Of a DNA stretch of 63,133 nucleotides, positions 8,056 through 60,358 are shown one piece after another. Source of the stretch: a virus; the IMG/VR virus record IMGVR_UViG_3300005534_000015, positions 1-63,133 of that record; one strand, given 5' to 3'. Every line of letters begins with the position of its first letter. Positions within the stretch are counted from its first letter, which is position 1. The translations under genes were made by a program, and so were the position numbers. The notes under the pieces were generated by a model. That model was not told the DNA's origin. It worked only from the letters and a program-made list of their open reading frames with translations, and did not search any database.

Positions 8056-8058
8056 TGT

Positions 8059-8250: not shown

Positions 8251-8277
8251 GGATGGACCCTTTCGTCCGTCGACAGT

Positions 8278-9770: not shown

Positions 9771-10571
9771 TTACTTCTTTGTAGCACGCTTGGCTTTTTG
9801 TTCCAGATATATTGCGTTGCAGCAGGTGATGCAGCGCGAGTTGGGAACGACTTTTCCATATTTTGTAGTGACGGGATAGAATAGTTCATTGAGTTTAATC
9901 TTATGGCATCGCCCGCATTCTCGTTTCTTTTCGCCCTTGAAGAGTTTTTGATATCTTCGCTTGCAATCTGACCGTTGATGCATTTCTTCGGAGTCGCACT
10001 CCTTACATTTCGGTCGGTTGGGCTCCGGTCCTGGCTTTCCAGAGGGATGGAATTCGGAGCGAGACTTGATCTTGTGACAACCTGAGCATTCCTTTTCAGT
10101 TGCGGACTTGAAGTATCTTTTCTGGGAATGAGTGGTGAGAGCTTTTTCAGGATCGATGCCTTTTCGAATTCTTCTGATCAGTTGTTGGTGGCTGATGTTG
10201 AACCGTGGATCTTTTACCCAATCCTGAACACATTTGGTTTCACCAAACGCGGTTACAATGATGTTGTTTCGTTTGTTGCGACTTTGTTCTCGCCGCGTAG
10301 ACCAGCGACAGTTCTCGGGGCAGTAATTCTTATCGTTGTCGATCCTGTCAATGGTCAGGCTGGGGTCGTAACCGTGGGTGACCGCCCAAAGGCGAAATGC
10401 CTCGAAATTATCGCGCCATTCGTCGCACATGACGATGCCTCGCGCGCCGTAGTTCTTGTAGGGACGGTGCGTCGGGTAGTAGCAGCGCATGTGGATGAAG
10501 GTCCAGATGCTTCGCAGGCGAAGCGCCTCGTCACTGTCAACCGGCGGCGAGGAGATATCGGCACGGTTCAT
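9771..10571 (-). CDS. HNH homing endonuclease with CxxC zinc modules, antisense
   Basis: Residues about 15-100 show the phage HNH layout: W-x-x-x-x-x-R-C-Y-x-P, Y-x-x-Y-G-A-R-G-I-V-M-C-x-E-W, then T-I-D-R-I-D-N-D-K-N-Y-x-P-E-N-C-R-W-S-T. The central region resembles a NUMOD DNA-binding segment and the C-terminal part carries two C-x-x-C-H-K-I-K zinc modules with partner C-x-x-C pairs. The gene runs against the flanking rightward genes, is AT-richer and has its own consensus promoter upstream, all signs of a mobile insertion just before the portal gene. Confidence 0.85.
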   Translation of the reverse strand: MNRADISSPPVDSDEALRLRSIWTFIHMRCYYPTHRPYKNYGARGIVMCDEWRDNFEAFRLWAVTHGYDPSLTIDRIDNDKNYCPENCRWSTRREQSRNKRNNIIVTAFGETKCVQDWVKDPRFNISHQQLIRRIRKGIDPEKALTTHSQKRYFKSATEKECSGCHKIKSRSEFHPSGKPGPEPNRPKCKECDSEEMHQRSDCKRRYQKLFKGEKKRECGRCHKIKLNELFYPVTTKYGKVVPNSRCITCCNAIYLEQKAKRATKK

Positions 10572-23255: not shown

Positions 23256-23834
23256 ATGGGTGCGGCGTTGGAGTGGAGCTTAAACCTCGTGAAGCCCGAT
23301 GCCGTCCGGCGCGGGCTGGTGGGCCGTATCATCTCCCGTTTTGAGGACAAAGGCTTGCGCTTGGTCGGGATGAAACTGGTCTGGCCGTCCCGCGCGATGA
23401 TCGAAGCGAGCTATACCGATAACGCCGAGGAAGAGTGGTTCCCGGCGCTGCTCGATTATATGACGAGCGGCCCGGTGGTCGCGATGGTGTGGGAAGGCCC
23501 GAATGCGAACGCGGCGGCGCGCCAAATCATCGGGAAGAAAGACCCGATGAAATCGGACGCGGGCTCTATCCGGGCCGATTACAACATCGAAATGGTCAAA
23601 ACGGTCGTTCACGGGTCGCGCACGCCGGAGGAAGCGGAAGCCGAAATCGGCATCTGGTTCTTCGGGCAGGGGCCAAAACCGATCTGGGACTGCATCCTGG
23701 GCACCGAAGCGGACAATCCGGATACCGGGGGTGACGGCGCGGACGACGACACCGAGACAAGTAACTCAAAGGCGCCCGTTATGCCGGGGAAGGCGATCCA
23801 CGCGATTGACCCCGGTAAGGAAGCGGGAAGCTGA
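23256..23834 (+). CDS. ndk: Nucleoside diphosphate kinase
   Basis: Residues 5-135 align by eye with NDK throughout: L-V-K-P-D-A-V-R-R-G-L-V-G-R-I-I (Lys13), G-S-I-R-A-D-Y with the phosphate-binding Arg106, and the active-site V-V-H-G-S with His119, followed by E-E-A-E-A-E-I. Two usually invariant positions differ: the Asn two before V-V-H is Thr, and the Asp after H-G-S is Arg. A 50-residue acidic tail follows the domain. The enzyme passes gamma-phosphate between NTPs and NDPs to supply dNTPs. Its stop shares bases with the capsid polyprotein start (TGATG), so it is made with head proteins. Confidence 0.85.
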   Translation: MGAALEWSLNLVKPDAVRRGLVGRIISRFEDKGLRLVGMKLVWPSRAMIEASYTDNAEEEWFPALLDYMTSGPVVAMVWEGPNANAAARQIIGKKDPMKSDAGSIRADYNIEMVKTVVHGSRTPEEAEAEIGIWFFGQGPKPIWDCILGTEADNPDTGGDGADDDTETSNSKAPVMPGKAIHAIDPGKEAGS

Positions 23835-26800: not shown

Positions 26801-27295
26801 GCTCCTTCGGGCTATACGCAGAAGGAGTGGGACGAGTATATTTCTCGCTACCTGGACAAGGCATCGAACGACATCTTCAAGAAGCGTAACGGCGATATGA
26901 CCCACGTGATCGCTGGCCCGGACGCGTGGCTGAAGCTGTCGGCGACGTTCCGCACGGGCACGGACCCGCGCAGCGGCCCGAACCCGGAGCAGTTCGCGGG
27001 CCTGACCCTGACCCCGTTCATGATGGGGACCGCGCCGGGGGTCAAGACGTATAAGACCTCGTTCTGGGCGGGGACGAACACGAACAAGATTCTGGTGCTG
27101 CGGCGCGGGCAGGACTGGTCGGATACGCCGTACGTTTGGGCACCGTATCTCGACTACGTTTCGCCCGTGCTGACGCTGCCGGATACTTTCAACCAGAAAC
27201 AAGGAATTATGTCACGTGTAGCACATCAGGTCGTCGTTGGCGACGCCATGGCTACTGTTTCTATCAACAGCGGTCAGACCGGAGTTACCCTCTAA
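23834..27295 (+). CDS. ChaB-prohead protease-scaffold-major capsid fusion
   Basis: One uninterrupted 1153-residue frame. Residues 1-62 form a ChaB domain (L-P-A-A-V-K-R-L-P ... A-F-K-I-G-W-S-A-V). About 115-250 is an unrecognised Tyr-rich domain, and about 280-360 a small phage domain of DUF6582 type. About 390-555 is a T4 gp21-like prohead protease with G-E-I-Q-H-P (His453) and V-D-I-S-S-R-G (Ser507/508). About 560-690 is a Lys/Glu-rich helical scaffold segment. About 700-1153 is a major capsid protein (P-R-R-Q-M-R-K-V-L ... Y-P-Q-L-I-A). Cleavage by its own protease would release the coat protein. A terminator follows. Confidence 0.8.
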   Translation: MPYASVKQLPAAVKRLPGHAKRIFRAAFNSAYKQHSGDETTAFKIGWSAVKKQYRKQGDRWVARQQDAQGDNEMKRLWADLSTVYKSYLDQAPMGDLTNVKDALELIEGLNQAAEPEMVALRQLEETCVPAIGFDLEQDYNYNRYKESGLNNSETHHNSYPGSLQHQIRCVCLAAHADEEVSEYLGDYGFILAVYPNYIITCAADDYEAQSADYWQVDYTFNKNTFAVTFGDAKQVDVGVVVVPKGTMPQETPEKEAAENGDGADDDMQDQDAGQNFKTEGGQKFSKGAYLIVPDAEKPSTWKIRIEETPGKVTVPQLGRAYAALTKGFRGNKVQASSGDKSAALAALKAKYKAMGADWPGSEKQEADDTPDWVLQGLDPPGGDETLVQSQTCLLQVKELDEESGILKVSGIATTGNVVNAKNQVYPTQVWQDNMPRLTRMIEQGKLVGEIQHPADGKPTLDRTVMKYTKLELAGDELKFEADILPTDPHGKNLQVLIQNGVSVDISSRGAGSMKVGDWNGTPGVSIVQRGFRNDAFDAVISGASPGSTITGWQLQSADNQTPEDTEEEMELKEVVEKLAASVAALAAGQEKITADLKQAKDTEITKVEAVKPEEKPVEQGLTTVHPEIERASQMAALMEQSLVRGRVESMVEETKAKGEWAPAFINAYRKQLTNANCKTLAELEQTNERVTKLIADMVQDAPKFPGKGFSVQKDVGERGLQTPREVIEALVADLPDDLPGMDSGMKHFIQQDENGEPVVPNHLMTPRRQMRKVLTNMAKFRTAGFDGPAAIQGLMLLSQGHDPSFVAEQFLDQSIPSGVTAVGNSGAPSSAIFIFPLVRRVYPQLIATEVASVQPMDRPDGKIFYLDAYRQSPGTDSVDMGGNTVSGEMRIDRSDSFSSSYANNPGELNTAQLIQLRLSNISVTADNKKLYASWSIEELQDLRAYHGLDASLELVGSLAREIALEWNQIVLQEMLNGATAGNENFGTTAPSGYTQKEWDEYISRYLDKASNDIFKKRNGDMTHVIAGPDAWLKLSATFRTGTDPRSGPNPEQFAGLTLTPFMMGTAPGVKTYKTSFWAGTNTNKILVLRRGQDWSDTPYVWAPYLDYVSPVLTLPDTFNQKQGIMSRVAHQVVVGDAMATVSINSGQTGVTL
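25541..27295 (+). CDS. Possible nested scaffold-capsid product from internal start
   Basis: Inside the polyprotein, GGAGGAAGAG at 25531-25540 immediately precedes an in-frame ATG at 25541 (residue 570), exactly at the start of the scaffold-like helical region. Translation here would give a 584-residue scaffold-plus-capsid protein free of the protease, at higher level than the full-length product. Nested scaffold starts are known in lambda-type heads (C/Nu3). This is inference from one ribosome-binding site and domain boundary. Confidence 0.5.
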   Translation: MELKEVVEKLAASVAALAAGQEKITADLKQAKDTEITKVEAVKPEEKPVEQGLTTVHPEIERASQMAALMEQSLVRGRVESMVEETKAKGEWAPAFINAYRKQLTNANCKTLAELEQTNERVTKLIADMVQDAPKFPGKGFSVQKDVGERGLQTPREVIEALVADLPDDLPGMDSGMKHFIQQDENGEPVVPNHLMTPRRQMRKVLTNMAKFRTAGFDGPAAIQGLMLLSQGHDPSFVAEQFLDQSIPSGVTAVGNSGAPSSAIFIFPLVRRVYPQLIATEVASVQPMDRPDGKIFYLDAYRQSPGTDSVDMGGNTVSGEMRIDRSDSFSSSYANNPGELNTAQLIQLRLSNISVTADNKKLYASWSIEELQDLRAYHGLDASLELVGSLAREIALEWNQIVLQEMLNGATAGNENFGTTAPSGYTQKEWDEYISRYLDKASNDIFKKRNGDMTHVIAGPDAWLKLSATFRTGTDPRSGPNPEQFAGLTLTPFMMGTAPGVKTYKTSFWAGTNTNKILVLRRGQDWSDTPYVWAPYLDYVSPVLTLPDTFNQKQGIMSRVAHQVVVGDAMATVSINSGQTGVTL

Positions 27296-27564: not shown

Positions 27565-28036
27565 GCTTCAGCCTTTCCTGAACCCGTTCCATCACAATCG
27601 GAAGGTGCTTGCGCGGGAAGCGGATTGAGACGCTGAACACGATACTCGCTGGACCGGGACGCGTAATGGCAACGGAATCACCGTCGTCATCGCTGTCCAT
27701 GTCTAAATCATCATGCGGGTGAATGCTGTAGATCCAATCCGATTTCAGGAGGCGGTCTTCTTCTTTCCGGTTGAATGGACGCCAGCAGCGGACGACGTGT
27801 TGATAAAAACTGTCATGGTCATCTTCGTACGGATTGGCGACGATATTGAGAAAGTTCTCGGCGTCCATAGCAGACAGAAACTCTATCCAGATGAACCCTT
27901 TCGGGACGTTGTTCTCGCATGAGTTGCAAGTGCCAATGTCGAGTTTCCAGAGAGACAGGATCAGGTCGGCGATTCCTTTATCGACGTCGGCGGCGTTGTC
28001 GCCGAATTCAATGTAACGGGTCTTGTGGGTGGTCAT
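27539..28036 (-). CDS. Hypothetical 165-residue protein, antisense island
   Basis: The product contains V-D-K-G-I-A-D-L-I-L-S-L-W-K-L-D-I-G-T-C-N-S-C-E followed by I-W-I-E-F, a pattern I recall from a small uncharacterised bacterial and phage family. The C-terminal half has an acidic loop (D-D-D-G-D) and beta strands. It runs against the head genes and overlaps the end of the endonuclease gene upstream of it by four bases, so it may travel with that mobile gene. Confidence 0.6.
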   Translation of the reverse strand: MTTHKTRYIEFGDNAADVDKGIADLILSLWKLDIGTCNSCENNVPKGFIWIEFLSAMDAENFLNIVANPYEDDHDSFYQHVVRCWRPFNRKEEDRLLKSDWIYSIHPHDDLDMDSDDDGDSVAITRPGPASIVFSVSIRFPRKHLPIVMERVQERLKLSVWCIAD

Positions 28037-28821
28037 TTGCTTACTCCTTTGTAGCCTTTGATGTCGCGTAGATCATCAACGCTGGTGTTTGGAAACGCTT
28101 TGGCATTGTGATTTAAGACGATTTTGCAGAGCGCGACGAACTGTCGGGGAGACATCGTATATTTCATCATGTTGACCAGTTGGCAACAGAGCACGACGTT
28201 TCCTTTCAGATAGCTTGTCGAGTGGTCAATTCGGTCCAGGCTGATTGAGAAGTGGCCCCGAGTCGTTGTCATAGGAAGTCCGGTGTAGTAACAAAGTCCT
28301 TTTTGTTTTTCTAGTAGTGACACTAAAAACTCGATGTCGAGGTCGTTATGAAGCATTGGGTTCTTCTTCGAGAATCTCGTGTTCCTCGACCTGTGGAGAA
28401 GCATCATCAGGTAGGCTCTTGGATTCGTAGTAATTCGCTCTTCTGCCGCCTTGTACCAGCAGATGGAGCATGTTGGTTTCCACTCTCTACTCATCGGATC
28501 AACCTGATAGATAAATTCTTCTGGTGGTAAAAGCTCGTCGCAGCCGTTACAGTGAAAGGTACCGCTTCCTGTATCTGGGCACGTTTTATAGTTGTGCCCC
28601 AGACCACCGCAGATTCTGCAGGCGTGTGCTTTTTCAGGGAAACACACGTAGCAAAGTGTAAACGTATTTGGTTGATACCTTTCGAAGCAACTATCATGCA
28701 TCTCGTAGTCGCATCCAGTGCATACATGCATGTTGTCGGGGTCTACCGGACATTTAGTTTTATTGTGACCCAACTTGCCGCAGTATCCGCAGCGTCCGAG
28801 TGATCCTTTAGGGCGTCCCAT
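28033..28821 (-). CDS. HNH endonuclease with CCHC zinc knuckles (copy 1)
   Basis: The 262-residue product has two C-x2-C-x4-H-x4-C zinc knuckles: C-G-Y-C-G-K-L-G-H at residues 11-24 and C-R-I-C-G-G-L-G-H at 68-81, plus further C-x-x-C zinc pairs. The C-terminal HNH domain (about 165-235) has L-C-Y-Y-T-G-L-P-M, S-L-D-R-I-D and N-V-V-L-C-C. Zinc knuckles of this type bind single-stranded nucleic acid in retroviral and cellular proteins and are rare in phage endonucleases. A paralogue lies at 29669-30379; both are antisense to the head operon and AT-rich. Confidence 0.8.
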   Translation of the reverse strand: MGRPKGSLGRCGYCGKLGHNKTKCPVDPDNMHVCTGCDYEMHDSCFERYQPNTFTLCYVCFPEKAHACRICGGLGHNYKTCPDTGSGTFHCNGCDELLPPEEFIYQVDPMSREWKPTCSICWYKAAEERITTNPRAYLMMLLHRSRNTRFSKKNPMLHNDLDIEFLVSLLEKQKGLCYYTGLPMTTTRGHFSISLDRIDHSTSYLKGNVVLCCQLVNMMKYTMSPRQFVALCKIVLNHNAKAFPNTSVDDLRDIKGYKGVSK

Positions 28822-29668: not shown

Positions 29669-30379
29669 CTATGACGCGTTGTTTTCGTGTATGATTCTGC
29701 ACAGAGTGAGGAATTGTTCGTCGTCAAGATCCTGTTTCATCTGGTTACAACGCCAACAACAGAGGACTACGTTTTCTGCAACATAGCCTTTGAGCGAATC
29801 CTTTCGGTCAATACTTATAGCCCAATCACCACAGTCGGTAGTCATTTCAATTCCTGAATAGTGACAGATCCATTGTTGGCGCTCTAGTAATTGAATGAGA
29901 AAATCAGGGTCGATGGCTGTTGGTAGATTTCGTTTGTCCATCGCCTTCTGTCCCGACTTTAGCATACGGCCAAACAACCAGTTCAAATCCTTGCGTTTTT
30001 CATCTCTGTTCCAAGTGCTGCATGTGCGACAATAACTGAGGGGATTACCGCTTTTCCTCAGCTTGTAATTCACTAATGGTAAGCGAAATCGACAGCGCGC
30101 GCACCAGTAAAGTCCGTCATCGGGCATTGGGCATGCGTTAATACGGTGTCCGACTTGACCACATCGATGGCAGCAGCGTCCGCGAAGTTCTTGGCAAACA
30201 CAGCAAATATCGCCATAACGACAGTTTCTGGGATCTTCATAGGTATAGAATCTGAATTCGGATACGCGGCGCGTTATACCACACTTTAAGCACGTTTTGT
30301 CGCGTAGAGGGCCGTTGGGGCAATTGCGTCGATAATGACCCTGTTGACCACAATCAGCACACCGAACGATACGAGGCAT
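29669..30379 (-). CDS. HNH endonuclease with CCHC zinc knuckles (copy 2)
   Basis: The 236-residue product repeats the layout of the gene at 28033-28821: knuckles C-A-D-C-G-Q-Q-G-H (7-20) and C-H-R-C-G-Q-V-G-H (70-83), extra C-x-x-C pairs, and a C-terminal HNH domain with I-C-H-Y-S-G-I-E-M, S-I-D-R-K-D and N-V-V-L-C-C-W-R-C-N. Core HNH and knuckle sequences are similar between copies but loops differ greatly, so the duplication is old or both came from related elements. It ends 13 bases after the stop of the connector gene. Confidence 0.8.
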   Translation of the reverse strand: MPRIVRCADCGQQGHYRRNCPNGPLRDKTCLKCGITRRVSEFRFYTYEDPRNCRYGDICCVCQELRGRCCHRCGQVGHRINACPMPDDGLYWCARCRFRLPLVNYKLRKSGNPLSYCRTCSTWNRDEKRKDLNWLFGRMLKSGQKAMDKRNLPTAIDPDFLIQLLERQQWICHYSGIEMTTDCGDWAISIDRKDSLKGYVAENVVLCCWRCNQMKQDLDDEQFLTLCRIIHENNAS

Positions 30380-37042: not shown

Positions 37043-37483
37043 ATGCCCCTCAATACCCCGCTAAATGCCAGCGCCGTAACCCTCGCGGATTATCCAACGG
37101 GCCTGAATCTGGTGCGCCTGGACATCGACCCGACCAGTTATGACCCGTTCGCGATCCCTATTCGCGGCTCCTCCGGGCAAGCCCTGGACGGCTCAGTGAT
37201 CCACCAGGTCTTTGGCCTGAACATCGAGGACTTCACAATCACCTTGCGGGGCCAGATTACCGCCATTCCCACCCTGCAGGCGCTGTGGACCAAATACAAA
37301 CAGGCTGGCGGTGGCCAGGAGTTCATTTTCAACGACTGGTACACCAACTCTTTTGTCGTAATCTTCACGCCGGGCATCGATGCGTTTCACCCCGAATACT
37401 TACTCGGGACCGCAGACAGCTTCAATTACGTGATGAGCCTGAGGATCATTTCCATCATCAGTTGGTTCGGTGGGAGTTACTGA
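37043..37483 (+). CDS. Distal tail (Dit-like) protein
   Basis: The 146-residue product is beta-rich (L-V-R-L-D-I-D-P, F-T-I-T-L-R-G-Q-I) with a W-T-K-Y-K loop. It directly follows the tape measure, where distal tail proteins lie in phages with non-contractile tails. It ends the tail core module before the glycosyltransferase cassette. Confidence 0.5.
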   Translation: MPLNTPLNASAVTLADYPTGLNLVRLDIDPTSYDPFAIPIRGSSGQALDGSVIHQVFGLNIEDFTITLRGQITAIPTLQALWTKYKQAGGGQEFIFNDWYTNSFVVIFTPGIDAFHPEYLLGTADSFNYVMSLRIISIISWFGGSY

Positions 37484-37515
37484 GAAGAAATACGCCCGGC
37501 CCTTTTCCCTCTTCC

Positions 37516-37544
37516 TGACAGGCGCTCGCAGGGTCGCTATACTG
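37516..37544 (+). promoter_or_regulatory. Promoter before the glycosyltransferase cassette
   Basis: CTGACA and TATACT are separated by 17 bases; both hexamers match consensus at five of six positions. The expected start near 37551 gives a leader of about 12 bases containing GGAG. It marks a separate transcription unit. Confidence 0.6.
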
Positions 37545-37562
37545 TTCCTATGGAGATCGCGC

Positions 37563-38441
37563 ATGAGCTGTAGGAACTGGTACCTTTCGTACGGGGGAGG
37601 GTTAGGCGACGTCGTTTACGACTACCTGAAAGACCGTTCCGCCTGGCGCCTCGCCAGCCTTGTCAAAGACTACGGTGGGCGCGTTCGAGTCTACACCCTT
37701 TGCCATAACGACGGCGTGAATGACCTCTTTCGTCAGCACCCCTACATCGCGGAACATATCTCTGAACCCTGGCACCTCTCGGTCCCCGAAGACGCCGTTC
37801 GTTTCTCCAACCCTATCGACGGTTACCTGCCGCTCCAGCACGACCAGTACTTTCGGCGCGAGTTCGGCATGGATTTCCAACTGGAGCAGCCGGAAATCTA
37901 CCTCTCCCCGCAGGAGAAAGCGCAACTGGCGGCGCTGGGCGGTCAGCGACCCTTGATCGTGGCGCAGCCGTTCGCCGGTCTTTCAGATCGGGACGGATAT
38001 GATTCCGATAGCTTTGAAAAGCAGGTAGCGCAGATCGTTCGGTTGGACTCCCGAGCGCGCATTGTAGTGGTCGGAAAAAACCACGCCCGCACCCATAAGT
38101 ACGCCCCCGAGGTCCTGAACTTCAGTCATCCAAACGTGGTCAATCTGATCGACCGCGCCGGCATCAGATTTTGCTGGCATCTGGTATACCAGGCGGACGC
38201 GTTTTTGGGGTGCCACAGCAACCTGATACGGACGGCCTGGGATGCCCGCAAGCGAAACGCCTGTATCCTCCCATGGCCCCTGATGGAGCGGCACCTGTCA
38301 GAGATCGACGGCAAGTATACGTTTGGCTGGCGGTATTCGGAAAGCCGCCGTTTTACCTATCCGTTCGACGGGACGGGTCAACGGCAGTTCGATAAGCTGG
38401 ACACGGGCGGGATCGCCCGTTTCATTCTGGGGCGGGAATAG
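37563..38441 (+). CDS. GT-B/heptosyltransferase-like glycosyltransferase
   Basis: Start at 37563 behind GGAGATCG; the frame upstream overlaps the promoter. The 292-residue product begins Y-L-S-Y-G-G-G-L-G-D-V-V, the Gly-rich loop of GT9/GT-B transferases, has a central Rossmann segment (R-I-V-V-V-G-K-N-H) and ends with Y-Q-A-D-A-F-L-G-C-H-S-N-L, like the donor-binding region of heptosyltransferases. It would transfer a sugar, possibly heptose, from a nucleotide donor. It opens a glycosylation cassette between tail genes. Confidence 0.6.
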   Translation: MSCRNWYLSYGGGLGDVVYDYLKDRSAWRLASLVKDYGGRVRVYTLCHNDGVNDLFRQHPYIAEHISEPWHLSVPEDAVRFSNPIDGYLPLQHDQYFRREFGMDFQLEQPEIYLSPQEKAQLAALGGQRPLIVAQPFAGLSDRDGYDSDSFEKQVAQIVRLDSRARIVVVGKNHARTHKYAPEVLNFSHPNVVNLIDRAGIRFCWHLVYQADAFLGCHSNLIRTAWDARKRNACILPWPLMERHLSEIDGKYTFGWRYSESRRFTYPFDGTGQRQFDKLDTGGIARFILGRE

Positions 38442-39215: not shown

Positions 39216-40097
39216 ATGGGGTCGACTGAGTATCCGCTCTTCGACTCAATGCTGCGCGGTATAGGCCGAGCCATGCGGGCTCCGTTACTCCGGAAAATCG
39301 ATTCCGATCTTCGCCTCGCAGCCGGATTACTTTCTGACGAAGGAATCAATCGCTTAATGCTCGTTCCTAATCGCTGTCCCGCCTGCCTGTCTCATTCGAC
39401 CTACACCCTCGCCGGCAACGAGTTCCAGACCTGTGACCGCTGCGGCACCATCGCCGCTCGCAACCGGCGGACGACGGCGACGTACGATGCGGTCTACGTG
39501 GCCTCCCGGTATGACCGCTACCGGACGACGCGCCAGATGAGCCACCTGCGCCTCGCGGTGCTGGAGGGCGTCCTCCACCTCTACGAAAGCCTCGCGGAGG
39601 GCTATGGGACGGTCAGGAAGGGCCGTCTGCTCGACGTGGGGTATGGGAATGGGGACTTCATCCGGACGGCCAACCAGAACGGCTGGGATGCGTGGGGGAA
39701 CGACGTCAACCCGACGGTGTATGAAGGGGTGCGGAAGGCCAACCTCCCGAACCTGCCCGACTGGCCCATTCGCTACCGGGTCATCACGTTCTTCGACGCC
39801 CTGGAGCATTTCGAAGACCTTAGTCATGCTCGCTGGGTATCGCACGCGGCTGATTGGCTGCTGCTCTCTTTCCCGGCGGTGCCGTCGACGTTTCCATTCG
39901 ATACGACTTGGAAGCATTACCGCCCCGGTGAGCATCATCTGCACTTCGACCCGAGCCGTCTCGCGAACATCTTCAGTCACAATGGTGTGACGGCCAAACT
40001 GGTTTATCAGGGTCATCCTGAGGATCAGATTCGAAAATCGACAGGAGACGGCCCAAATATCTGGACATGCGCATTGAGGTGTTATGGTAAACGCTAA
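39216..40097 (+). CDS. SAM-dependent methyltransferase with zinc-ribbon N-terminus
   Basis: Residues about 46-75 hold C-P-A-C ... C-D-R-C, a zinc ribbon. The class I methyltransferase core follows, with motif I L-L-D-V-G-Y-G-N-G-D and a later F-F-D-A-L-E-H-F motif. The layout is that of sugar or natural-product C/O-methyltransferases found with glycosyltransferases. It probably methylates the sugar or aglycone made by the cassette. Overlaps the next gene by 14 bases. Confidence 0.75.
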   Translation: MGSTEYPLFDSMLRGIGRAMRAPLLRKIDSDLRLAAGLLSDEGINRLMLVPNRCPACLSHSTYTLAGNEFQTCDRCGTIAARNRRTTATYDAVYVASRYDRYRTTRQMSHLRLAVLEGVLHLYESLAEGYGTVRKGRLLDVGYGNGDFIRTANQNGWDAWGNDVNPTVYEGVRKANLPNLPDWPIRYRVITFFDALEHFEDLSHARWVSHAADWLLLSFPAVPSTFPFDTTWKHYRPGEHHLHFDPSRLANIFSHNGVTAKLVYQGHPEDQIRKSTGDGPNIWTCALRCYGKR

Positions 40098-40554
40098 TTC
40101 TCCTACTGTTTCCAGATTCATGAAGTTTGTTCGTCGTTGCCCAAGTGGGTGTTGGTTGTGGAGTGGATGTATACTTAAAAACGGTTACGGACAATTCTGG
40201 TTGAACGATAAGAATTGGAAAGCACATCGAGTTTCCTACTTACTATTCAAAGGTCGACTAATAGAAGGGCTGGTAATCGATCATCTCTGTCGCAATCGAG
40301 CCTGTGTGAATCCCGATCATCTGGAATTAGTTACGCACAGAACGAACCTACTCCGAGGCGAAACTCTTAATGCAAAAGAGCTGAATCAAACGCATTGCAA
40401 AAGAGGTCATCCTTTTGATGACGGAAACACCTATGTAGATCCTTCGGGAAGTAGATCGTGTCGAACATGTTTAAGAGCAAAATACAAAGCATATCGCCAG
40501 CGTAAGAAGGTGAATGCTGCGTCCCTTCGCTGCACAAAGGAGAACTCAAAGTGA
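40084..40554 (+). CDS. HNH homing endonuclease (HNH_3 type)
   Basis: The 156-residue product has G-C-W-L-W-S-G at 22-28, A-H-R-V-S-Y-L-L-F-K-G, and the catalytic region I-D-H-L-C-R-N-R-A-C-V-N-P-D-H-L-E-L-V-T-H, followed by a zinc-type C-x-R-G-H ... C-R-T-C pair. This is the small freestanding phage HNH family. It is on the sense strand, overlaps both neighbours and is AT-rich, suggesting insertion between the methyltransferase and the small gene at 40551. Confidence 0.9.
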   Translation: MVNANSPTVSRFMKFVRRCPSGCWLWSGCILKNGYGQFWLNDKNWKAHRVSYLLFKGRLIEGLVIDHLCRNRACVNPDHLELVTHRTNLLRGETLNAKELNQTHCKRGHPFDDGNTYVDPSGSRSCRTCLRAKYKAYRQRKKVNAASLRCTKENSK

Positions 40555-41231: not shown

Positions 41232-41885
41232 ATGCTGACCGAAGCGAAACTGTTTGACGCCGAGACCGAGCGGTATGTGATTAACCGGTCCATCATCGAT
41301 AAAGTGGCCCTACCGGTGGGGGACCGGTACGATGACGAGCTGTTTCAGCAGTATTTTGCCGACTACTGTGGAGTAGCTAGACGCTATCAACCGAAGCGCA
41401 TCTTTGAAATTGGCGTCCGTTTCGGATATACGGCCATCGCATTCATGCTGGCCCTACAGTCGCTGCCCGATGCGCCAGAAGCCGAATACATGGGAATCGA
41501 TGATGAGAGTTACCATTTTGCTAGTTGTGCGCGCGCAAATCTGAACTTCGCGACGGCGCTGCCGAATCATTTCATGTCCGCAATCAAGCACAATTCCTTC
41601 AATGGATTGCCGGAGGGTATCGGAACGTTTGATCTCATCCACGTAGATGGCAATCATACGGCCGTAGGGGTGATGAACGACCTTAATCTCGTCTGGAGGA
41701 TTCTGAATCCCAGCGGAGTCATTATCATCGATGACGCCGCGCCGTTCGATGATCGGGGGCAACCCGGCGAAATCTACACGGCGGCGATGGAGTTTCTGTC
41801 GCGGTTCGAGAACTCGCCGGAACAGGTTGAGTGGCAGTATCAGCCGAACCAGAGGGGGCATCTCATCGTCAAACGGTGCGCGTGA
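41232..41885 (+). CDS. Class I methyltransferase (Methyltransf_24-like)
   Basis: The 217-residue product has motif I I-F-E-I-G-V-R-F-G-Y-T-A, a motif II with Y-M-G-I-D-D-E-S, and F-D-L-I-H-V-D-G-N-H with I-I-I-D-D, the pattern of the Methyltransf_24 family whose members act on small molecules or sugars. It lies between small genes and the heptosyltransferase-like gene, so a role in modifying a glycan is likely. Confidence 0.75.
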   Translation: MLTEAKLFDAETERYVINRSIIDKVALPVGDRYDDELFQQYFADYCGVARRYQPKRIFEIGVRFGYTAIAFMLALQSLPDAPEAEYMGIDDESYHFASCARANLNFATALPNHFMSAIKHNSFNGLPEGIGTFDLIHVDGNHTAVGVMNDLNLVWRILNPSGVIIIDDAAPFDDRGQPGEIYTAAMEFLSRFENSPEQVEWQYQPNQRGHLIVKRCA

Positions 41886-41887
41886 GA

Positions 41888-42910
41888 ATGCCATTTAGTC
41901 GGCCTTACCGAGTAAGCGTTTTGCGGCAGTTAGGCGGGGTGGGTGACCTCTTAATGCTTACACCCGTATTCCTTGGGCTCAAGGAGAAGTATCCGGGCTG
42001 CAAGGTTACTGTCGCGACGACCTGGGAGTATCAATCGGGCGCGCTGCCGCAACTCCTCCGCAACAACCCTTACGTCGACCATATCGTTCGCGTCGAGCCG
42101 ATGGAGTTTGCGACCGGGATGATGAAGCATGCCCGCTGGGAGTTCCGCGGCGTGCCGAACGAGCACATCCCCGACTGCGTGCAGAGCGCCGACCTGGTGA
42201 TCGAGCTGTCCGTCATCTGCGCCATGACCGAATCGAGAGAGATGGCTTCTCCGGAAGGGGTGCGCTCCCACCGAACAGACATCTGGTGCAAGGCGGCGCA
42301 CGTCAACCCCAGCAGCCATCGTCCCATCCTCTGCCTGACGAAGGACGAGATGGCCTGGGGCCGGCAGTGGTGCGATGAGAACCTGGGGGAAGGGATACGG
42401 GTCGGACTGCCGCTGAAGACGATGAGCGGAACGGTGATCGGCAAGGATGTCAGGGGCTGGCCCCACACGGAGGCGTTCGCTTACGATCTGCAGCGGGCCG
42501 GTTACCAGGTGGTCACGCTGGACGCCACGCGCCGCATTCACGATTCCATCCCGGCCTTGCTCGGCAAGCCCATCCGCCAGGTCGCGGCCGTCATCGCCCA
42601 CCTGGACGCTCTCGTGACGCCCGACACGGGTCTGCTGCACGTCGCGGGCGCAGTCGGGACGCCGATCCTGGGCCTCTTCGGTTCAACTGATGGCGACCTG
42701 CGGATGAGAGAGTACTGCGGTTCGTATACGATTTCCAAGCGCATCATCCCGTGCGGCAACTGCTTCTATGCTTATCCGTGTCTAAAGAGCCCGAAGCAGG
42801 CGGAACACGTCGCCTGTATGAAGCGGATTACGCGGGAGTTAGTGATGCACGAATTGGAGGTCCTACTGGAACGGTTTGGCCACGCCCTCCCTCGCGCCGT
42901 CACGGCCTGA
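41888..42910 (+). CDS. GT9 heptosyltransferase-like glycosyltransferase
   Basis: The 340-residue product has the full GT9 layout: V-L-R-Q-L-G-G-V-G-D-L-L-M-L-T-P at the N-terminus (acceptor Rossmann domain), a central linker, and a donor-domain signature V-T-P-D-T-G-L-L-H-V-A-G-A-V-G-T-P-I-L-G-L-F-G-S. These enzymes add heptose from ADP-heptose to lipopolysaccharide core or to other acceptors. Start at 41888 (overlap region with the methyltransferase stop). It pairs with ADP-heptose synthesis genes at 53614-55314. Confidence 0.85.
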   Translation: MPFSRPYRVSVLRQLGGVGDLLMLTPVFLGLKEKYPGCKVTVATTWEYQSGALPQLLRNNPYVDHIVRVEPMEFATGMMKHARWEFRGVPNEHIPDCVQSADLVIELSVICAMTESREMASPEGVRSHRTDIWCKAAHVNPSSHRPILCLTKDEMAWGRQWCDENLGEGIRVGLPLKTMSGTVIGKDVRGWPHTEAFAYDLQRAGYQVVTLDATRRIHDSIPALLGKPIRQVAAVIAHLDALVTPDTGLLHVAGAVGTPILGLFGSTDGDLRMREYCGSYTISKRIIPCGNCFYAYPCLKSPKQAEHVACMKRITRELVMHELEVLLERFGHALPRAVTA

Positions 42911-44989: not shown

Positions 44990-45316
44990 ATGTCTGGTTG
45001 GTACGGAGTGGACCTGGATGGCACGCTCGCTTACTACAAACCGGGAATGGCCAGCGCCCTCCTCATCGGTGACCCGATTCCGCCCATGCTGGCGCGGGTC
45101 AAGCAGTGGTTATCCGAAGGGAAGACTGTCAAATTGTTCACCGCTCGCGCCTGCGATCCTGATCAGATCAGACCTATTCGCGAGTGGTTAAAAAAGCATG
45201 GTCTTGAGCAGATGGAGATTACGAACATCAAGGATTACAGTTGCATCGAAATCTGGGATGATCGGGCGGTGCAGGTCGTGATGAACACCGGTCTTCGTGC
45301 CGACGGCCTTCTTTAA
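44990..45316 (+). CDS. HAD-like hydrolase domain protein
   Basis: The 108-residue product has the HAD motif I G-V-D-L-D-G-T-L-A (Asp8 and Asp10), a later L-F-T-A-R segment that fits motif II, and I-E-I-W-D-D-R-A as motif IV. The domain is very small for a HAD phosphatase and lacks a clear cap. It could act on a phosphorylated sugar or nucleotide; because heptose enzymes are present, a heptose-bisphosphate phosphatase role is conceivable but not supported by sequence. Confidence 0.7.
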   Translation: MSGWYGVDLDGTLAYYKPGMASALLIGDPIPPMLARVKQWLSEGKTVKLFTARACDPDQIRPIREWLKKHGLEQMEITNIKDYSCIEIWDDRAVQVVMNTGLRADGLL

Positions 45317-52756: not shown

Positions 52757-53008
52757 CTAACATAACCCCTGCGCGAACTGCAGCTTTTCGGCTGCTGCGG
52801 CTTTCGCGACTGCCTCGCGCAGCGAGCGGCCCACGACATGGACGCGTCCCTGCATCTTATCGCCGTGCCAGTAGGAGACGGCCCAGTAATCGCCGTCTTC
52901 TTCGCCCGAGGGTTGCGTGCCTTCTGGCTTTTTGACCCACCGCTCGACGGTGGCCCGGCGCTGGTCGATAAACGCTTGGGCTGCCTCTTCCGATTCAGGC
53001 CCGGTCAT
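52757..53008 (-). CDS. Hypothetical 83-residue protein
   Basis: Start at 53008 overlaps the cupin stop (ATGA), chosen over the longer frame to 53074. The product is Glu/Gln/Ala-rich with a W-A-V-S-Y-W-H-G-D strand and a helical C-terminus. No family recognised. Confidence 0.55.
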   Translation of the reverse strand: MTGPESEEAAQAFIDQRRATVERWVKKPEGTQPSGEEDGDYWAVSYWHGDKMQGRVHVVGRSLREAVAKAAAAEKLQFAQGLC

Positions 53009-53379
53009 GGCATCGTCCACCACAACTTGGCATCGGCTACAGGATCGAGTGCGTGGCTTTCGTTGATTCGGCAAACGTCTTCATCGGAATGTTGAGTGGA
53101 CACTTCTAGAAGAGTCATTCCCGTTAACGTCGCGAAACAATGCGGCGTACCGCGGGGGACATGTAGAGTCTCTCCGACTGACACCGGCCATAGGGTGGAT
53201 CCGACGACGATTACGCCGGAACCCGCAACGACGTGAAAACTCTCGGCCTTCTTTGGGTGATAATGAAGAGAGCAAACATATCCCGGAGAAATATAGAGCC
53301 ACTTCGAACAGAATTCGGGACGATTCGTAATGTAAACTTCTTCACCCCATATTTTGGTAACAACCCGTCCCTCATCCAT
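53005..53379 (-). CDS. Cupin-domain protein
   Basis: Start at 53379 behind GGAGAG. The 124-residue product is a single cupin: motif 1 with S-L-H-Y-H-P-K-K-A-E (His39, His41, Glu46) and motif 2 with G-E-T-L-H-V-P-R-G-T-P-H (His80), enough to bind one metal. Cupins of this form include sugar-phosphate isomerases/epimerases and binding proteins. Its neighbours are heptose genes, so a sugar substrate is likely. Confidence 0.75.
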   Translation of the reverse strand: MDEGRVVTKIWGEEVYITNRPEFCSKWLYISPGYVCSLHYHPKKAESFHVVAGSGVIVVGSTLWPVSVGETLHVPRGTPHCFATLTGMTLLEVSTQHSDEDVCRINESHALDPVADAKLWWTMP

Positions 53380-53617
53380 TTTTACTCTCCTTCTCATCGG
53401 GAACCCACTGTTTCTCCGGTTTCGGCTGTTCGACCTTTGCCTCTTCCAGTATCTTGCGGGCGCCGGCCCGCAGAAGATCAGCGACGGTCATGTTGTTCTT
53501 CCGCGCAAACTTCATGAAACGCATCCATTCGTCCGGTTCAACGCTGGCCGAGACACGCACCGTATTCTGGTGAATCTTAAACTTGCCCCAATCCTTCAGG
53601 GTCGGGTCTTTCATCAT
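53372..53617 (-). CDS. Ribbon-helix-helix-like DNA-binding protein
   Basis: The 81-residue product has a strand V-R-V-S-A-S-V followed by two helices (E-W-M-R-F-M-K-F-A-R and M-T-V-A-D-L-L-R-A-G-A), as in CopG/MetJ-type repressors, then a Lys/Glu-rich tail. It may regulate this operon. Confidence 0.6.
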   Translation of the reverse strand: MMKDPTLKDWGKFKIHQNTVRVSASVEPDEWMRFMKFARKNNMTVADLLRAGARKILEEAKVEQPKPEKQWVPDEKESKNG

Positions 53618-54126
53618 CGTCGCTTCCTCCTCTTCGCCCCAGGAAGGGCCTGCAGCCGCTCCAGGAGGACCGTTGTGCGATGTTCCGAGAGGTAGGGCAG
53701 GGTATGGACCTCTCCCCCGTATTTTTGGACCACAGCGGCTTCAGGGAGGTCCTCGATGCGCCGATCCGGCCCCTTCACGTAAGCGTGCGGCTGGATCACT
53801 TCAAGAACGCCTTCCGGTGTGTCGTCATCGAAGACGACAATGGTGTCCACCGCCTCCAGGGCCGCCAGCATCAGCACCCGGTCCCGGACGGCGAAAAGAG
53901 GACGCTCTTTCCCTTTGAGGCGGGTTACGCTCGCATCGGAATTCAAGCAGACAATCAGGTGCGTTCCATAATGACACCGGGCCTGATGGAGGAACAGGAC
54001 ATGCCCTGGATGAAGCAGATCGAAGCAGCCGCTCGTCGCGACGATATGGTTGCCTAGCGACCGGAGAATCTGACAGTGCTCGCGGATCTGCGACAGGCGA
54101 ACGACCTTATGTTCGAGGCGGAGCAT
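53614..54126 (-). CDS. hldC: D-glycero-beta-D-manno-heptose 1-phosphate adenylyltransferase (HldE C-domain/HldC-like)
   Basis: The 170-residue product is a cytidylyltransferase-like enzyme: S-G-C-F-D-L-L-H-P-G-H at 32-42 (H-x-G-H at 39-42), N-S-D (62-64) and L-K-G-K-E-R-P, matching HldE's second domain and HldC. It would make ADP-heptose from heptose-1-phosphate and ATP. It shares the operon with the kinase at 54283-55314. Confidence 0.85.
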   Translation of the reverse strand: MLRLEHKVVRLSQIREHCQILRSLGNHIVATSGCFDLLHPGHVLFLHQARCHYGTHLIVCLNSDASVTRLKGKERPLFAVRDRVLMLAALEAVDTIVVFDDDTPEGVLEVIQPHAYVKGPDRRIEDLPEAAVVQKYGGEVHTLPYLSEHRTTVLLERLQALPGAKRRKRR

Positions 54127-54299
54127 CAGGCATCGACTCCCGCGCCAGCGCGGAGACCGTCGACAACCTCCTGGGGCAGGGAGATGAGGTGATCGCAGTA
54201 CTCCCAGGCGTAGTCGTTCGTGCGGGAGTAATAGTAGACGGGGTTGCCGCGATAGAAGACGCCCTCGACGGGCACCCAGCAGTTATAGAGTGACGGCAT
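54126..54299 (-). CDS. Hypothetical 57-residue protein between heptose genes
   Basis: Start at 54299 chosen for operon fit; the longer frame runs antisense-like through the kinase. The product has many Tyr and Trp (Y-N-C-W-V-P, Y-Y-Y-S-R-T-N-D-Y-A-W) and overlaps the kinase end by 17 bases and the adenylyltransferase start by one. Unknown function. Confidence 0.5.
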   Translation of the reverse strand: MPSLYNCWVPVEGVFYRGNPVYYYSRTNDYAWEYCDHLISLPQEVVDGLRAGAGVDA

Positions 54300-55314
54300 C
54301 GGTCGATCCCTCCGGCGTTGTTTCAGGGGCCGCGAGCGCGGCGGCTTGCAGCGGCGTTCCACAGCCGATCTGCGCGCAGCAGTGCGCGGCCCAGCGTTGC
54401 CCTTCGTGTATCCATCGTTTGACCTCTTGCTCCTTCGATCCGGCGTGACCCGCCAACTGCGGGCGCCGCAGGACGCTGTAAGCGAAGCCGGCGGTGAATG
54501 CGTCACCTGCCCCGGTTACGTCAATCACGTTATCGGCAAGAGTCGGCTCGTGGAGCATCCTCCGAACGGTGGATTCCGGTTCCATCGAAAGATTACAGTA
54601 AACGCCGCCCGACCCCTGAGTAACGACACGGCATCGCGACTGGAAGAGAGGCCAACGGTCGTTCTCCACAACTTCCTGCCAATGAGTGTCAGCCTCCTTG
54701 TGGTTGCAGATGAAGGCTTCGAGACAGGCGTCCTCCCAACGCTGCGGGACCTTTGAGTTGACAATGGTCGTGAGGCTCGGATAGAGGGTTCCTATCCAGT
54801 TGATGAGCCGCTGGCCCGCTCGGCCCTGAAACATCCCTTTATCGTAGTCGGCCACGACGACAAGATCGAAGATACCTTGTAAAAGCACCTCCCGAAGAGA
54901 GGCGCACTCTTGTTCGTCCAGAATGCAATTCGTATCTTCGTCGCAGCGAACCAGTTGCCTGACAAATTCTCCCGACTCAGAGGCAAGGCAAATCCTCTCT
55001 TTGCGGGTCGTGCGGAATTGACCTGGCGGGCGCAAGCAGCGCCAGGAGAGAGCAATGTTGTTACGCGCGCAAAGGTCGCTCAAATCGCCACCCGTTGCAT
55101 CCGTCGTCCAGTGACAAAAGAGAGTGACAGCAACGTCTTCCTGCGCTGCCAGCCACCGGGCGACGTTTGCCGCGCCTCCCAGCTCAATTTCGGTCTTCAT
55201 GTTGGACAGGACGCGGCAGTCGGGGTCCTCGGGGCTATCTCGGAAAGTAAAGCTATAACGACGGACATCAACCATCGCGTCACCAATGACGGCAATACGA
55301 TATGGATAGGACAT
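54283..55314 (-). CDS. hldA: D-glycero-beta-D-manno-heptose-7-phosphate kinase (HldE N-domain/HldA-like)
   Basis: The 343-residue product is a PfkB-family kinase: G-D-A-M-V-D at 11-16, substrate loop G-G-A-A-N at 46-50, V-A-D-Y-D-K-G (D156, K159) and the catalytic D-V-T-G-A-G-D-A-F at 265-273 with Asp271. The overall order and first motif fit the HldE kinase domain. It would phosphorylate heptose-7-phosphate at C1; the next enzyme adds AMP. In many bacteria these domains are fused; here they are separate genes as in HldA/HldC. Confidence 0.85.
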   Translation of the reverse strand: MSYPYRIAVIGDAMVDVRRYSFTFRDSPEDPDCRVLSNMKTEIELGGAANVARWLAAQEDVAVTLFCHWTTDATGGDLSDLCARNNIALSWRCLRPPGQFRTTRKERICLASESGEFVRQLVRCDEDTNCILDEQECASLREVLLQGIFDLVVVADYDKGMFQGRAGQRLINWIGTLYPSLTTIVNSKVPQRWEDACLEAFICNHKEADTHWQEVVENDRWPLFQSRCRVVTQGSGGVYCNLSMEPESTVRRMLHEPTLADNVIDVTGAGDAFTAGFAYSVLRRPQLAGHAGSKEQEVKRWIHEGQRWAAHCCAQIGCGTPLQAAALAAPETTPEGSTDAVTL

Positions 55315-55319: not shown

Positions 55320-55865
55320 CTACGGTTCCTTTCGAAGGGCCTGATCGAGTTCGTCCAGTGTCTGGCGAAAGAAAGGTGTCTTCTTCCCATCGGCGCTGAT
55401 AAAGTCAGGAAGCCGATGGATCGATTTCATGTCTATCCGAGACATGGTGTAAACGTCAAGGAACCGAACCTGCACGGCGGCTATTTTATCTGCGGTCATG
55501 GTTTCGGCGCCATCTCCCTTATCGACCCGTCGCCGCATCCGCGCTTCGACTGCTTCCACCGCATCTCCCATCAGAAACAGACGGCACTCCATCACACTCA
55601 TAAAGTGGTCGAACTTCCCCAACTCTCGATCCGAGAGCACCCCGCCGCCGAGACACCCGTTATAGGCATAATTGGAAAGGTGCGCCCGGTCGATGATGAA
55701 GTGGCGACTGCGGCGATACTGTTCAAGCAGCCCGTCGCGGAAGTGCCGATAGGCGTCGGGCGGCGGGACGTTGAACTTCAGGATAGGCAGGTCCAACGCC
55801 TCGCCGATGGCGGCGGCAAGGGTGGACTTACCCGTCATGTTGAGCCCTTCGATCAGTAATATCAA
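55320..55865 (-). CDS. P-loop deoxynucleotide-kinase-like protein
   Basis: The 181-residue product has Walker A G-L-N-M-T-G-K-S-T at 7-15, a D-R-A-H-L-S segment (position of the DRX motif in thymidylate/deoxynucleoside kinases) and a later R-M-R-R-R lid region. It likely phosphorylates a nucleoside or dNMP. It lies between the polymerase and heptose genes. Confidence 0.7.
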   Translation of the reverse strand: MILLIEGLNMTGKSTLAAAIGEALDLPILKFNVPPPDAYRHFRDGLLEQYRRSRHFIIDRAHLSNYAYNGCLGGGVLSDRELGKFDHFMSVMECRLFLMGDAVEAVEARMRRRVDKGDGAETMTADKIAAVQVRFLDVYTMSRIDMKSIHRLPDFISADGKKTPFFRQTLDELDQALRKEP

Positions 55866-58800: not shown

Positions 58801-59183
58801 TAGTAGAATCCTTGAGTGAAAGACTTCTGATACAACTTTAAGAGATTCTGATAGCCCATCTGATTCTGGGCGAGAACGGTCAGGTGGGCAATCTCGACGG
58901 AGGCGGCACCGCGCTGCTGCTTGGTCCCTTTCTCCTTGCCGCGCTGATGCATGTTCTCACGATGGTAGAACTCGCACCCGGCGATAGGCTGGAGGCCACG
59001 CGCTTTCAGGGATTGGAAGAAGGGCCAGATTCCAAACAAGGTACCGTGGTCAGTAAGAGCGCTGTGCTGCTGGCCCAGTTCAACCAAACGGTCAGCGATC
59101 TGATCCGTGTCGCCGGCACCGTCCAAGCGACTATACATACTGTGGGAATGTAGCGCCGCGTAGGGTATTCTTTCTATTGACAT
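55878..59183 (-). CDS. dnaE: DNA polymerase III alpha subunit (DnaE-type, family C)
   Basis: The 1101-residue product starts with a PHP domain (A-L-H-S-H-S-M-Y-S, L-T-D-H-G-T) whose metal-ligand His/Asp residues are largely kept, so intrinsic proofreading is possible. The polymerase palm has P-D-I-D-L-D-F-D near residue 420 and a third Asp in F-L-K-I-D near 576. A helix-hairpin-helix region (G-I-G-P-N-H-A-E-K) and an OB domain (I-V-G-R-I-T-D-V-Q) follow. It is the phage's replicative polymerase. Confidence 0.9.
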   Translation of the reverse strand: MSIERIPYAALHSHSMYSRLDGAGDTDQIADRLVELGQQHSALTDHGTLFGIWPFFQSLKARGLQPIAGCEFYHRENMHQRGKEKGTKQQRGAASVEIAHLTVLAQNQMGYQNLLKLYQKSFTQGFYYKPSLDWKAVVEHQEGLIVLSGCVGGMVSRLINKDQADLAFQWCDYLRNHIENWFIEIVPCPGLPISYAACRTLWKIAEELKLPTVLTDDAHFPRPEDHECEDAMLCISMGNKKKDEQRKLRIPAYHYRCSGEEILQRAREVLPSVPEADLIAAARRSVEIAESCDVELPRGRGPLFQVPEGLTAFDLLKQWVEEGKAYRRSLGLLPPLASDEWREYEERTEYELDIIRHHAFSNYFLLVADIVRWANKNKYWCIARGSCGGSLLCWYLSITQINPIQFKLPVERFIDKSRSDMPDIDLDFDARYRDECFAYLEKKYGKEHCAQIASLSTFRARQSIKDVCEVYDIPEWVGQAMVRLLPELDNEGGIKNKGQLAALFQQSEGAQRLLKDWPALKIAADLEGQIRSQSLHAAGFVVDQEPLETIVGVEAIPNKARVIACDMNFAAQQGFLKIDALSVEMMSGVAEILDTLGHDFDWLYRLPLDDVPTYEMLSKGRNMGVFQLKGHSTGKLLLQLQPSHINDLVALAALGRPGPLQSGGAAEYIERKHGRMAMPRYHPKVMEVLGETYGVILYQEQVMGLMRVAGFDWPDVHKVRKLVSKSGGTAALEKYHPLYLKGMKAAGVPPKEADHLWIQCQKAGNYIFNKAHGAMYALHAYWTAYLKCHHPATFACIMANHEKKEAFQRQILREFRQQGGRLILLDPNLSERQFSSPEPNTILGGFQTIKGIGPNHAEKMIAKRPYRDWTHFLLNCPSSLAYDLQAVGAHTGDLDLDCALVIAPWFVNVHYLPIERTAAAQKKAMTIRNIHAQMEEGGGQRAVRIVGRITDVQLSTTKKQGKPGVTSGTNERLLITITDETGSVDVWFSGWKWAEIKRGRDPLRGPTDGIGNSVYAVAVISDDGTRLFGEDIVCFRESKGVVHARTRAALKAEQQKQRAEQQSKRDLFDLEENPQHPITVRSRAYPGGALTRLEEQLRSIE

Positions 59184-59659
59184 AGCTTACGAAGATTCTT
59201 TATTGCGCCGAGAATCGCCTGGCTGACATATTGCTGCCGCATTCCCAATCGTTTGCTTATCTCTACTTGCGTGAGGCCCTCGCAAAAATACAGAGACGCG
59301 CACTCCTTCTGGCGCCCTCGCAGTCTTCCCAACATCCATTCGACCCAGCAGTCGCCGATAACGAATTGACAGTTGTCTTCCTCGCCCACTGTTTCATCCA
59401 CAAGGGGATTACCCTCTTCATCGACAAGGTGGGCCTCATGAGCACCGATGTTTTTCCGCGAGCGCGACAATTGCCTGAGCCGACGACTGATGGCCCGTCT
59501 GACTCTGAGGTCCTGTTCCGGTCCCTCGTTTGCTAACTCTTCCAAAGCTGCGAGAAACGCTTCTTGCTTCATGTCTTCATGCTCTGCCGGAGGATGGTAT
59601 CGCTTCAGGTGCCAGAGTATCATTGGTAGATACTTTCGAACGTCGGTCTCATCAGCCAC
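59174..59659 (-). CDS. Sigma70-family-like factor (ECF-type)
   Basis: GTG start at 59659 overlaps the deaminase stop. The 161-residue product has a region-2-like D-M-K-Q-E-A-F-L-A-A-L-E and a region-4-like helix-turn-helix L-T-Q-V-E-I-S-K-R-L-G-M-R-Q-Q-Y-V. Length and layout match ECF sigma factors or phage late-transcription sigma-like proteins. It may read the TAYAAT-type promoters of the late genes; this is not shown. Overlaps the polymerase start by ten bases. Confidence 0.7.
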   Translation of the reverse strand: MADETDVRKYLPMILWHLKRYHPPAEHEDMKQEAFLAALEELANEGPEQDLRVRRAISRRLRQLSRSRKNIGAHEAHLVDEEGNPLVDETVGEEDNCQFVIGDCWVEWMLGRLRGRQKECASLYFCEGLTQVEISKRLGMRQQYVSQAILGAIKNLRKLCQ

Positions 59660-60125
59660 CGTACAACTCTTCCCACGCCTCATGGGTGTAGGGGACGCGC
59701 TCGACATCGCATCCGTACTTGTCCCAATAAGCGTCGTCGCAGCAGCCGCGATGTCCGTGAGCGGTTGGCCCGACCCAGTAGACAATCCGGGCTAACTTGG
59801 CCTGCATAACATCGAGTCCGCAGTCGTTGCAGGGAACGCCGCTGACGTAGAGGGTGGCGCCTTTGCAGCGTTCACGGCCGGCGAACATGATGGCGTTGCT
59901 TTCGGAATGAAGGCAACAATTTTCCTTCGGCGCATTGGGCGGTAGACCGACCCGGTAGCAAATGTGGTCGTTCTGGGAACCGGCGGGCTTCCCGTTGTAG
60001 CCCGTGGCGATGATATGCCCTTCTGGATGGACGATGACTGAACCATACTGAGCCCGAAGGCACTTGGAGCCTTTGGCGATCTCGAAGGCTAGGTTGATAT
60101 AGTAGCGGTCCTGTTTAAGAATCAT
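59652..60125 (-). CDS. dCMP deaminase
   Basis: Start at 60125 (TAATG overlap). The 157-residue product has the zinc/catalytic motif H-S-E at 73-75 (His73, Glu75) and P-C-N-D-C at 98-102 (Cys99, Cys102), with N-terminal K-C-L-R-A-Q-Y-G-S-V-I-V as in ComEB-type dCMP deaminases. It makes dUMP from dCMP for thymidylate synthesis. Confidence 0.9.
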   Translation of the reverse strand: MILKQDRYYINLAFEIAKGSKCLRAQYGSVIVHPEGHIIATGYNGKPAGSQNDHICYRVGLPPNAPKENCCLHSESNAIMFAGRERCKGATLYVSGVPCNDCGLDVMQAKLARIVYWVGPTAHGHRGCCDDAYWDKYGCDVERVPYTHEAWEELYGG

Positions 60126-60358
60126 TAGTGTTCTTTCGAATTCGGATGTGTCTTTAACCACTTCCATAAAGCAACAGTTAGTTCTTCAACCTTTGATCGT
60201 TCAAGCCAAACATTCGACCCCTCAAGAACGTATCCACCATCGGTTAGACACAAACGTAAACCATGTGTGTCATCCGTAATTAACTCGACACATAGGTAAT
60301 CGCTCAATGAGATTGTGGCATGCACATTAACGTCATCTCCAATCCATTCTTCTGTCAT
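60125..60358 (-). CDS. Hypothetical 77-residue protein
   Basis: Mixed alpha/beta product with D-V-N-V-H-A-T-I-S and a closing W-K-W-L-K helix. Its stop overlaps the deaminase start (TAATG). Unknown. Confidence 0.6.
   Translation of the reverse strand: MTEEWIGDDVNVHATISLSDYLCVELITDDTHGLRLCLTDGGYVLEGSNVWLERSKVEELTVALWKWLKTHPNSKEH

Follow-up and report, generated by a model that had tools for sequence, protein, structure and literature searches.

Cyanophage 'LPS' clusters that carry the gene families treated here, and the linkage among these families, have already been published (PMC3037559, PMC7824862). Cupin-fold sugar isomerases, PfkB kinases and HIGH-type nucleotidyltransferases have been named in such clusters (PMC7824862), and a mannose-6-phosphate isomerase has been described in a cyanophage (PMC9602691). 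A literature search found no statement that a cupin replaces GmhA. Clusters of this type have been known from phages, and what seems to be new is the GmhA role that we propose for the cupin.

The window, meaning the whole stretch of DNA that was analysed, is a viral record of 63,133 bases without a host placement. A first-pass annotation had read two adjacent minus-strand genes as an HldA/HldC-like pair, and we recover both ORFs at the positions given there (170 aa and 343 aa) along with all of its claimed motifs (GGAAN, DVTGAGDAF and HPGH). On balance, we favour a reading in which this phage operon makes ADP-activated heptose, with a cupin acting in place of GmhA and a GT9 enzyme transferring the product. 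The genes concerned are as follows.

37470-38441, plus strand: gene earlier called heptosyltransferase-like, GT9 membership not established (weak partial profile alignment)
39216-40097, plus strand: methyltransferase (Methyltransf_23) near the GT9 gene (PF13489, 42.9 bits)
41232-41885, plus strand: methyltransferase (Methyltransf_24) adjoining the GT9 gene (PF13578, 59.8 bits)
41831-42910, plus strand: GT9 (heptosyltransferase family) glycosyltransferase, 359 aa (PF01075; profile alignment)
44990-45316, plus strand: HAD-fold ORF, 108 aa, candidate phosphatase (DxDGT motif; phage HAD profile)
53005-53397, minus strand: cupin of the type II mannose-6-phosphate isomerase kind, proposed GmhA substitute (PF01050, phrog_7851, phage-wide co-occurrence)
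53372-53617, minus strand: 81-aa ORF in the same operon, overlapping the end of HldC (ORF list)
53614-54126, minus strand: HldC-like nucleotidyltransferase, 170 aa, proposed heptose 1-phosphate adenylyltransferase (TIGR02199, 5x9q, tree)
54126-54299, minus strand: 57-aa ORF between HldA and HldC, overlapping both (sequence and overlaps)
54283-55314, minus strand: HldA-like PfkB-family kinase, 343 aa, proposed heptose 7-phosphate kinase (TIGR02198, PDB, fold, diagnostic residues)
55320-55865, minus strand: dNMP/thymidylate-kinase-like operon gene lying immediately upstream of HldA (phrog_761; PF02223, weak)

Gene organization

The putative heptose genes lie in a compact minus-strand operon that runs, in order, through a DnaE-like polymerase, the dNMP-kinase-like gene, HldA, the 57-aa ORF, HldC, the 81-aa ORF and the cupin, with neighbours that overlap or almost abut; the GT9 gene stands apart, 11 kb away on the opposite strand. 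The HldC frame has no stop as far as the stop codon of the kinase, which raised the suspicion of a broken HldE fusion. This was discarded because the 57-aa ORF, in another frame, covers the gap; it overlaps HldA by 17 nt and HldC by TGATG, so HldA and HldC are truly separate genes, as the first-pass annotation had held. The dNMP/thymidylate-kinase-like gene probably functions in DNA precursor metabolism, and the 81-aa ORF had no match in a family-model search. A promoter and terminator scan gave no excess over chance, and a tyrosine integrase was sought in the record and not found. The polymerase has one close relative (56%), on a contig that stops just past the polymerase, before the position of the heptose genes.

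Several other features of the record were observed. A sigma-70-like protein (regions 2 and 4) is encoded beside the polymerase operon (59174-59785, minus strand), with a deoxycytidylate-type deaminase near it (59652-60167). One 1153-aa ORF (23834-27295, plus strand) matches a head maturation protease (399-627) and a major head protein (905-1131) in a single frame, and HNH/homing-type endonuclease genes occur at five or more separate places in the record (4713-5531, 9771-10571, 28033-28821, 29669-30379 and 40084-40554).

The HldC-like and HldA-like proteins

The HldC-like protein matched TIGR02199 at 162.1 bits (E 7e-48) over positions 6-143 of 144, which is below the curated NCBIfam cut-off of 181.5, a cut-off also missed by the phage relatives from P-SSM2 and LR756511; the TagD-type glycerol-3-phosphate cytidylyltransferase model scored 28.7 bits against 162 for TIGR02199. 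The protein also matches phrog_7878, and its full-length domain match includes HPGH at residues 39-42, the HxGH nucleotidyltransferase motif. Its closest solved relative is PDB 5x9q (108 bits), deposited as a 'putative cytidylyltransferase', which we take to be B. pseudomallei HldC. In our tree the protein nests in bacterial HldC domains, with identity of up to 49% (an actinobacterial HldE domain), and we consider its assignment to HldC secure at the family level.

The kinase is very divergent, and its nearest family is HldA by profile, sequence and fold. It reached 86.6 bits (E 1.6e-24) against TIGR02198, whose curated NCBIfam cut-off of 345 it falls below, while the next specific sugar-kinase models (ribose-1-phosphate kinase, fructokinase and ribokinase) gave at most 24.4 bits. 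PF00294 matched at 62.6 bits, with DVTGAGD at 265-271 (PfkB fold, GAGD catalytic motif), and the sole PDB sequence match was Burkholderia HldA (4e84). We derived a set of HldA-diagnostic residues from our own alignment, rather than from mutagenesis, taking positions that hardly vary among 73 bacterial HldA/HldE kinases and that do not occur together as a set in seven other E. coli PfkB kinases (RbsK, YeiI, PsuK, FruK, KdgK, PfkB and Gsk). All seven residues, R31, K106, R108, R118, D120, D151 and Y152 in E. coli HldE, are kept in the window kinase as R25, K105, R107, R123, D125, D156 and Y157. With the predicted structure (pLDDT 83.7), a fold search returned HldA in the first seven PDB matches, and the best HldA E-value was better than that of ribokinase by four orders of magnitude, with a mild bias in that the alignment behind the prediction is rich in HldA relatives. 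Our tree places the kinase on the HldA side of the outgroup (98/95). Its branch is long, however, at 3.0 changes per column, and a basal position was not rejected (AU p 0.41). A direct search of phage records with this kinase gave no match and single-protein viral scans returned almost none; the profile scan alone was productive.

Since both proteins score under the curated NCBIfam equivalog cut-offs, we name them HldA-like and HldC-like. Grouping with ribokinase/fructokinase or with TagD/GlmU was not seen for either, though the long, deep branch of the kinase keeps trees from placing it firmly. ADP-heptose activation by HldA/HldC-like enzymes, the central claim of the first-pass annotation, is well supported by profiles, PDB matches, fold, diagnostic residues and the HldC tree.

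The cupin beside HldA and HldC

The window cupin, a third gene that the first-pass annotation had missed, matched PF01050 at 28.7 bits, above the gathering cut-off of 23.6, as well as phrog_7851, and is 32-38% identical to cupins adjoining HldA/HldC-like genes in the cyanophages P-SSM2, S-CAM1 and P-TIM68. A profile scan for HldC relatives yielded 80 viral and 80 bacterial loci. Among those with both HldA and HldC, 46 of 54 viral loci and 0 of 72 bacterial ones had the cupin at a distance of no more than 8 kb, whereas GmhA was present within that distance in 1 of 54 viral and 48 of 72 bacterial loci; these contrasts have Fisher p values of 2e-26 and 2e-15, respectively, both overstated as the loci are related and the counts therefore non-independent. 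None of the 54 viral and 72 bacterial loci had cupin and GmhA together. The cupin profile was seeded from phages, and even with iteration the search detected no cupin in the bacterial loci. Across phages, cupins stand where bacterial loci have GmhA, and they accompany fused and split HldA/HldC alike as well as the separate lineage of this window. The cupin, kinase, HAD phosphatase, HldC and an HldD-like epimerase occur together in 22 of the 80 phage loci, which makes one gene for each of the five steps of a pathway in which step one would otherwise have no assigned enzyme. One viral locus alone carries the bacterial-type set of HldC, GmhB, HldA and GmhA (coordinates 1971-6434), without the cupin.

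The cupin fold is a poor guide to function. A mannose-6-phosphate isomerase model was matched by 12 of 41 phage cupins and a D-lyxose isomerase model by 8 of 41; D-lyxose isomerase chains from the PDB align over most of the cupin profile, with other cupins scoring equally well or better. The best fold match of the window cupin is an archaeal phosphomannose isomerase, with many unrelated cupins nearly equal. Several ManC isomerase domains were among the bacterial genome matches of the cupin profile. The strongest match in the 12 bacterial genomes searched was in an Acidobacteriota MAG, where a long ORF (locus coordinates 1462-3300) ends in a cupin domain scoring 79 bits against the phage cupin profile.

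The conversion of fructose 6-phosphate to mannose 6-phosphate is the six-carbon analogue of the GmhA reaction, in which sedoheptulose 7-phosphate becomes D-glycero-D-manno-heptose 7-phosphate. Given this analogy and the exchange of GmhA for the cupin across phage loci, replacement of GmhA would be the simplest reading of the gene. The window gave no match to PF13580 or a GmhA profile, the SIS-fold family to which GmhA belongs, and we propose that the cupin works like GmhA, not that it is a member of that family. If it does, the isomerase need not be host-derived; the first-pass view that the host supplies it is made doubtful by this sugar-isomerase-type cupin in the operon, of the family that stands in for GmhA in phage clusters. 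More tentatively, we suggest that phages may have swapped GmhA for an unrelated cupin isomerase of the kind that acts on mannose 6-phosphate, and may so have gained a route of their own that leads from a pentose-phosphate intermediate to ADP-heptose. The window would be a divergent example of this, unlike the cyanophages and paired with a heptosyltransferase-like gene.

Proposed pathway and heptose transfer

The data show to which families the kinase, adenylyltransferase, cupin and GT9 enzyme belong, how compact the operon is and that phages at large exchange GmhA for the cupin in these loci. In the proposed pathway, for which we infer all substrates and the order of reactions, the cupin would replace GmhA in converting sedoheptulose 7-phosphate to D-glycero-D-manno-heptose 7-phosphate, and the HldA-like kinase would then form the 1,7-bisphosphate. 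The 7-phosphate would be removed by a phosphatase, which may be the HAD-fold ORF of the phage or may come from the host, after which the HldC-like enzyme would add AMP to give ADP-D-glycero-beta-D-manno-heptose. The GT9 enzyme would transfer the heptose, probably without epimerisation: an HldD epimerase was sought in the record and not found, which would leave the donor in its D,D form. The kinase, nucleotidyltransferase and cupin set that recurs in cyanophage clusters and the GT9 gene speak for this pathway. Against it stand the Hld scores under the curated cut-offs, the very long kinase branch with its possible basal position, the low specificity of cupin folds, the weak phosphatase assignment, the missing HldD, the distance and opposite strand of the GT9 gene and the relatedness of the loci counted.

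Scored with the phage HAD profile, the HAD-fold ORF ranked first among 254 ORFs of similar size; it carries a DxDGT motif and has no Pfam match. It could be the pathway phosphatase, but small HAD proteins of this kind may have no tie to heptose. Two heptosyltransferase-like genes had been reported by the first-pass annotation, at 37563 and 41888. The latter is a GT9 member at the family level (PF01075 at 51.2 bits against a cut-off of 22, with 303 columns covered in a profile alignment), scoring below the NCBIfam equivalog cut-offs for WaaC/WaaF/WaaQ, while the assignment of the former is not established, as 37470-38441 had no Pfam, NCBIfam or PHROG match and aligned with GT9 only partially and weakly (hhalign, 84% probability, 132 columns). 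The two methyltransferases by the GT9 gene may take part in glycan modification. The phage may have a dedicated glycosylation system, as envisaged earlier, and a host-surface or cell-wall glycan appears slightly more likely as the acceptor than a virion protein.

Alternative explanations

The phage might instead encode only the kinase and HldC steps to ADP-heptose, with isomerase and phosphatase supplied by the host, as the first-pass annotation held, and the cupin doing another job, such as modifying the activated sugar or acting on a different sugar phosphate. The presence of GmhA near HldA/HldC in two-thirds of the bacterial loci (48/72) fits this, as do the functional diversity of cupins and their unspecific fold matches. 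We nonetheless find it rather unlikely, since the phage clusters with their own phosphatase and epimerase (22/80 loci) would then oddly lack the first enzyme alone, and since the cupin matches aldose-ketose isomerase families. It is more doubtful still that the divergent kinase and the nucleotidyltransferase make another NDP-sugar from a different sugar phosphate, for example one produced by a cupin of the mannose-6-phosphate isomerase type. The scores under the curated HldA/HldC cut-offs, the long kinase branch and the resemblance of the cupin to mannose-6-phosphate isomerase would all be expected in that case; against it, every HldA-diagnostic residue is kept, HldC nests within bacterial HldC, HldD-like epimerases go with the phage module elsewhere and the record has a GT9 gene.

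The genes directly follow a DnaE-like polymerase and a dNMP-kinase-like gene, with a deaminase nearby, which could point to heptose-bearing hypermodified bases in the DNA of the phage itself. We regard this as very improbable: no thymidylate-synthase-type or Tet/JBP hydroxylase gene was found in the record, and with no base-hypermodification synthase found there, DNA is an unlikely acceptor. GT9 enzymes are not known to be DNA glycosyltransferases.

Heptose made by the phage operon through the cupin remains our preferred reading, and the phage may both make and attach its own heptose. ADP-heptose is an innate-immune ligand and a building block of the outer surface, and phage control of its supply could alter the surface of the host, the attachment of phages later on or the decoration of virions. 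Should the cupin prove to be the isomerase, phages would have put together an ADP-heptose pathway of their own that begins with an unrelated enzyme, and two labels would be corrected: 'cysteine dioxygenase', which these cupins bear in cyanophage records, and 'phosphoheptose isomerase' in P-SSM2. The latter label is found on proteins of both P-SSM2 and S-CAM1 (locus coordinates 10113-10457 and 8083-8406); the P-SSM2 protein matches HAD phosphatase models (EcbF/BcbF type), not GmhA.

Comparison with known systems

The bacterial GmhA-HldE/HldA-HldC-GmhB pathway with GT9 shares its kinase, adenylyltransferase and GT9 families with the window, but bacterial loci commonly have GmhA and never this cupin, and their HldA and HldC are mostly fused. 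The C-terminal type II mannose-6-phosphate isomerase domain of ManC/AlgA resembles the window cupin in its fold, and the HxH metal motif region and a C-terminal acidic/Arg stretch align; the window cupin differs in being a stand-alone 130-aa protein that has no GDP-mannose pyrophosphorylase domain and is linked to HldA/HldC genes. The uncultured huge phage LR756511.1 (595 kb) likewise encodes HldA and HldC domains, fused in one HldE-like protein of 472 aa (locus 6993-8411), and has a GT9 gene elsewhere in its genome, but no cupin in the 16 kb examined. Closest to the window are the cyanophage 'LPS' clusters of P-SSM2, S-CAM1 and P-TIM68, which also have separate HldA-like and HldC-like genes adjoined by a cupin of the same family. 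These clusters add a HAD phosphatase and an HldD-like epimerase, whereas the window, in which no HldD was found, has a far more divergent kinase and a GT9 gene in the same record.
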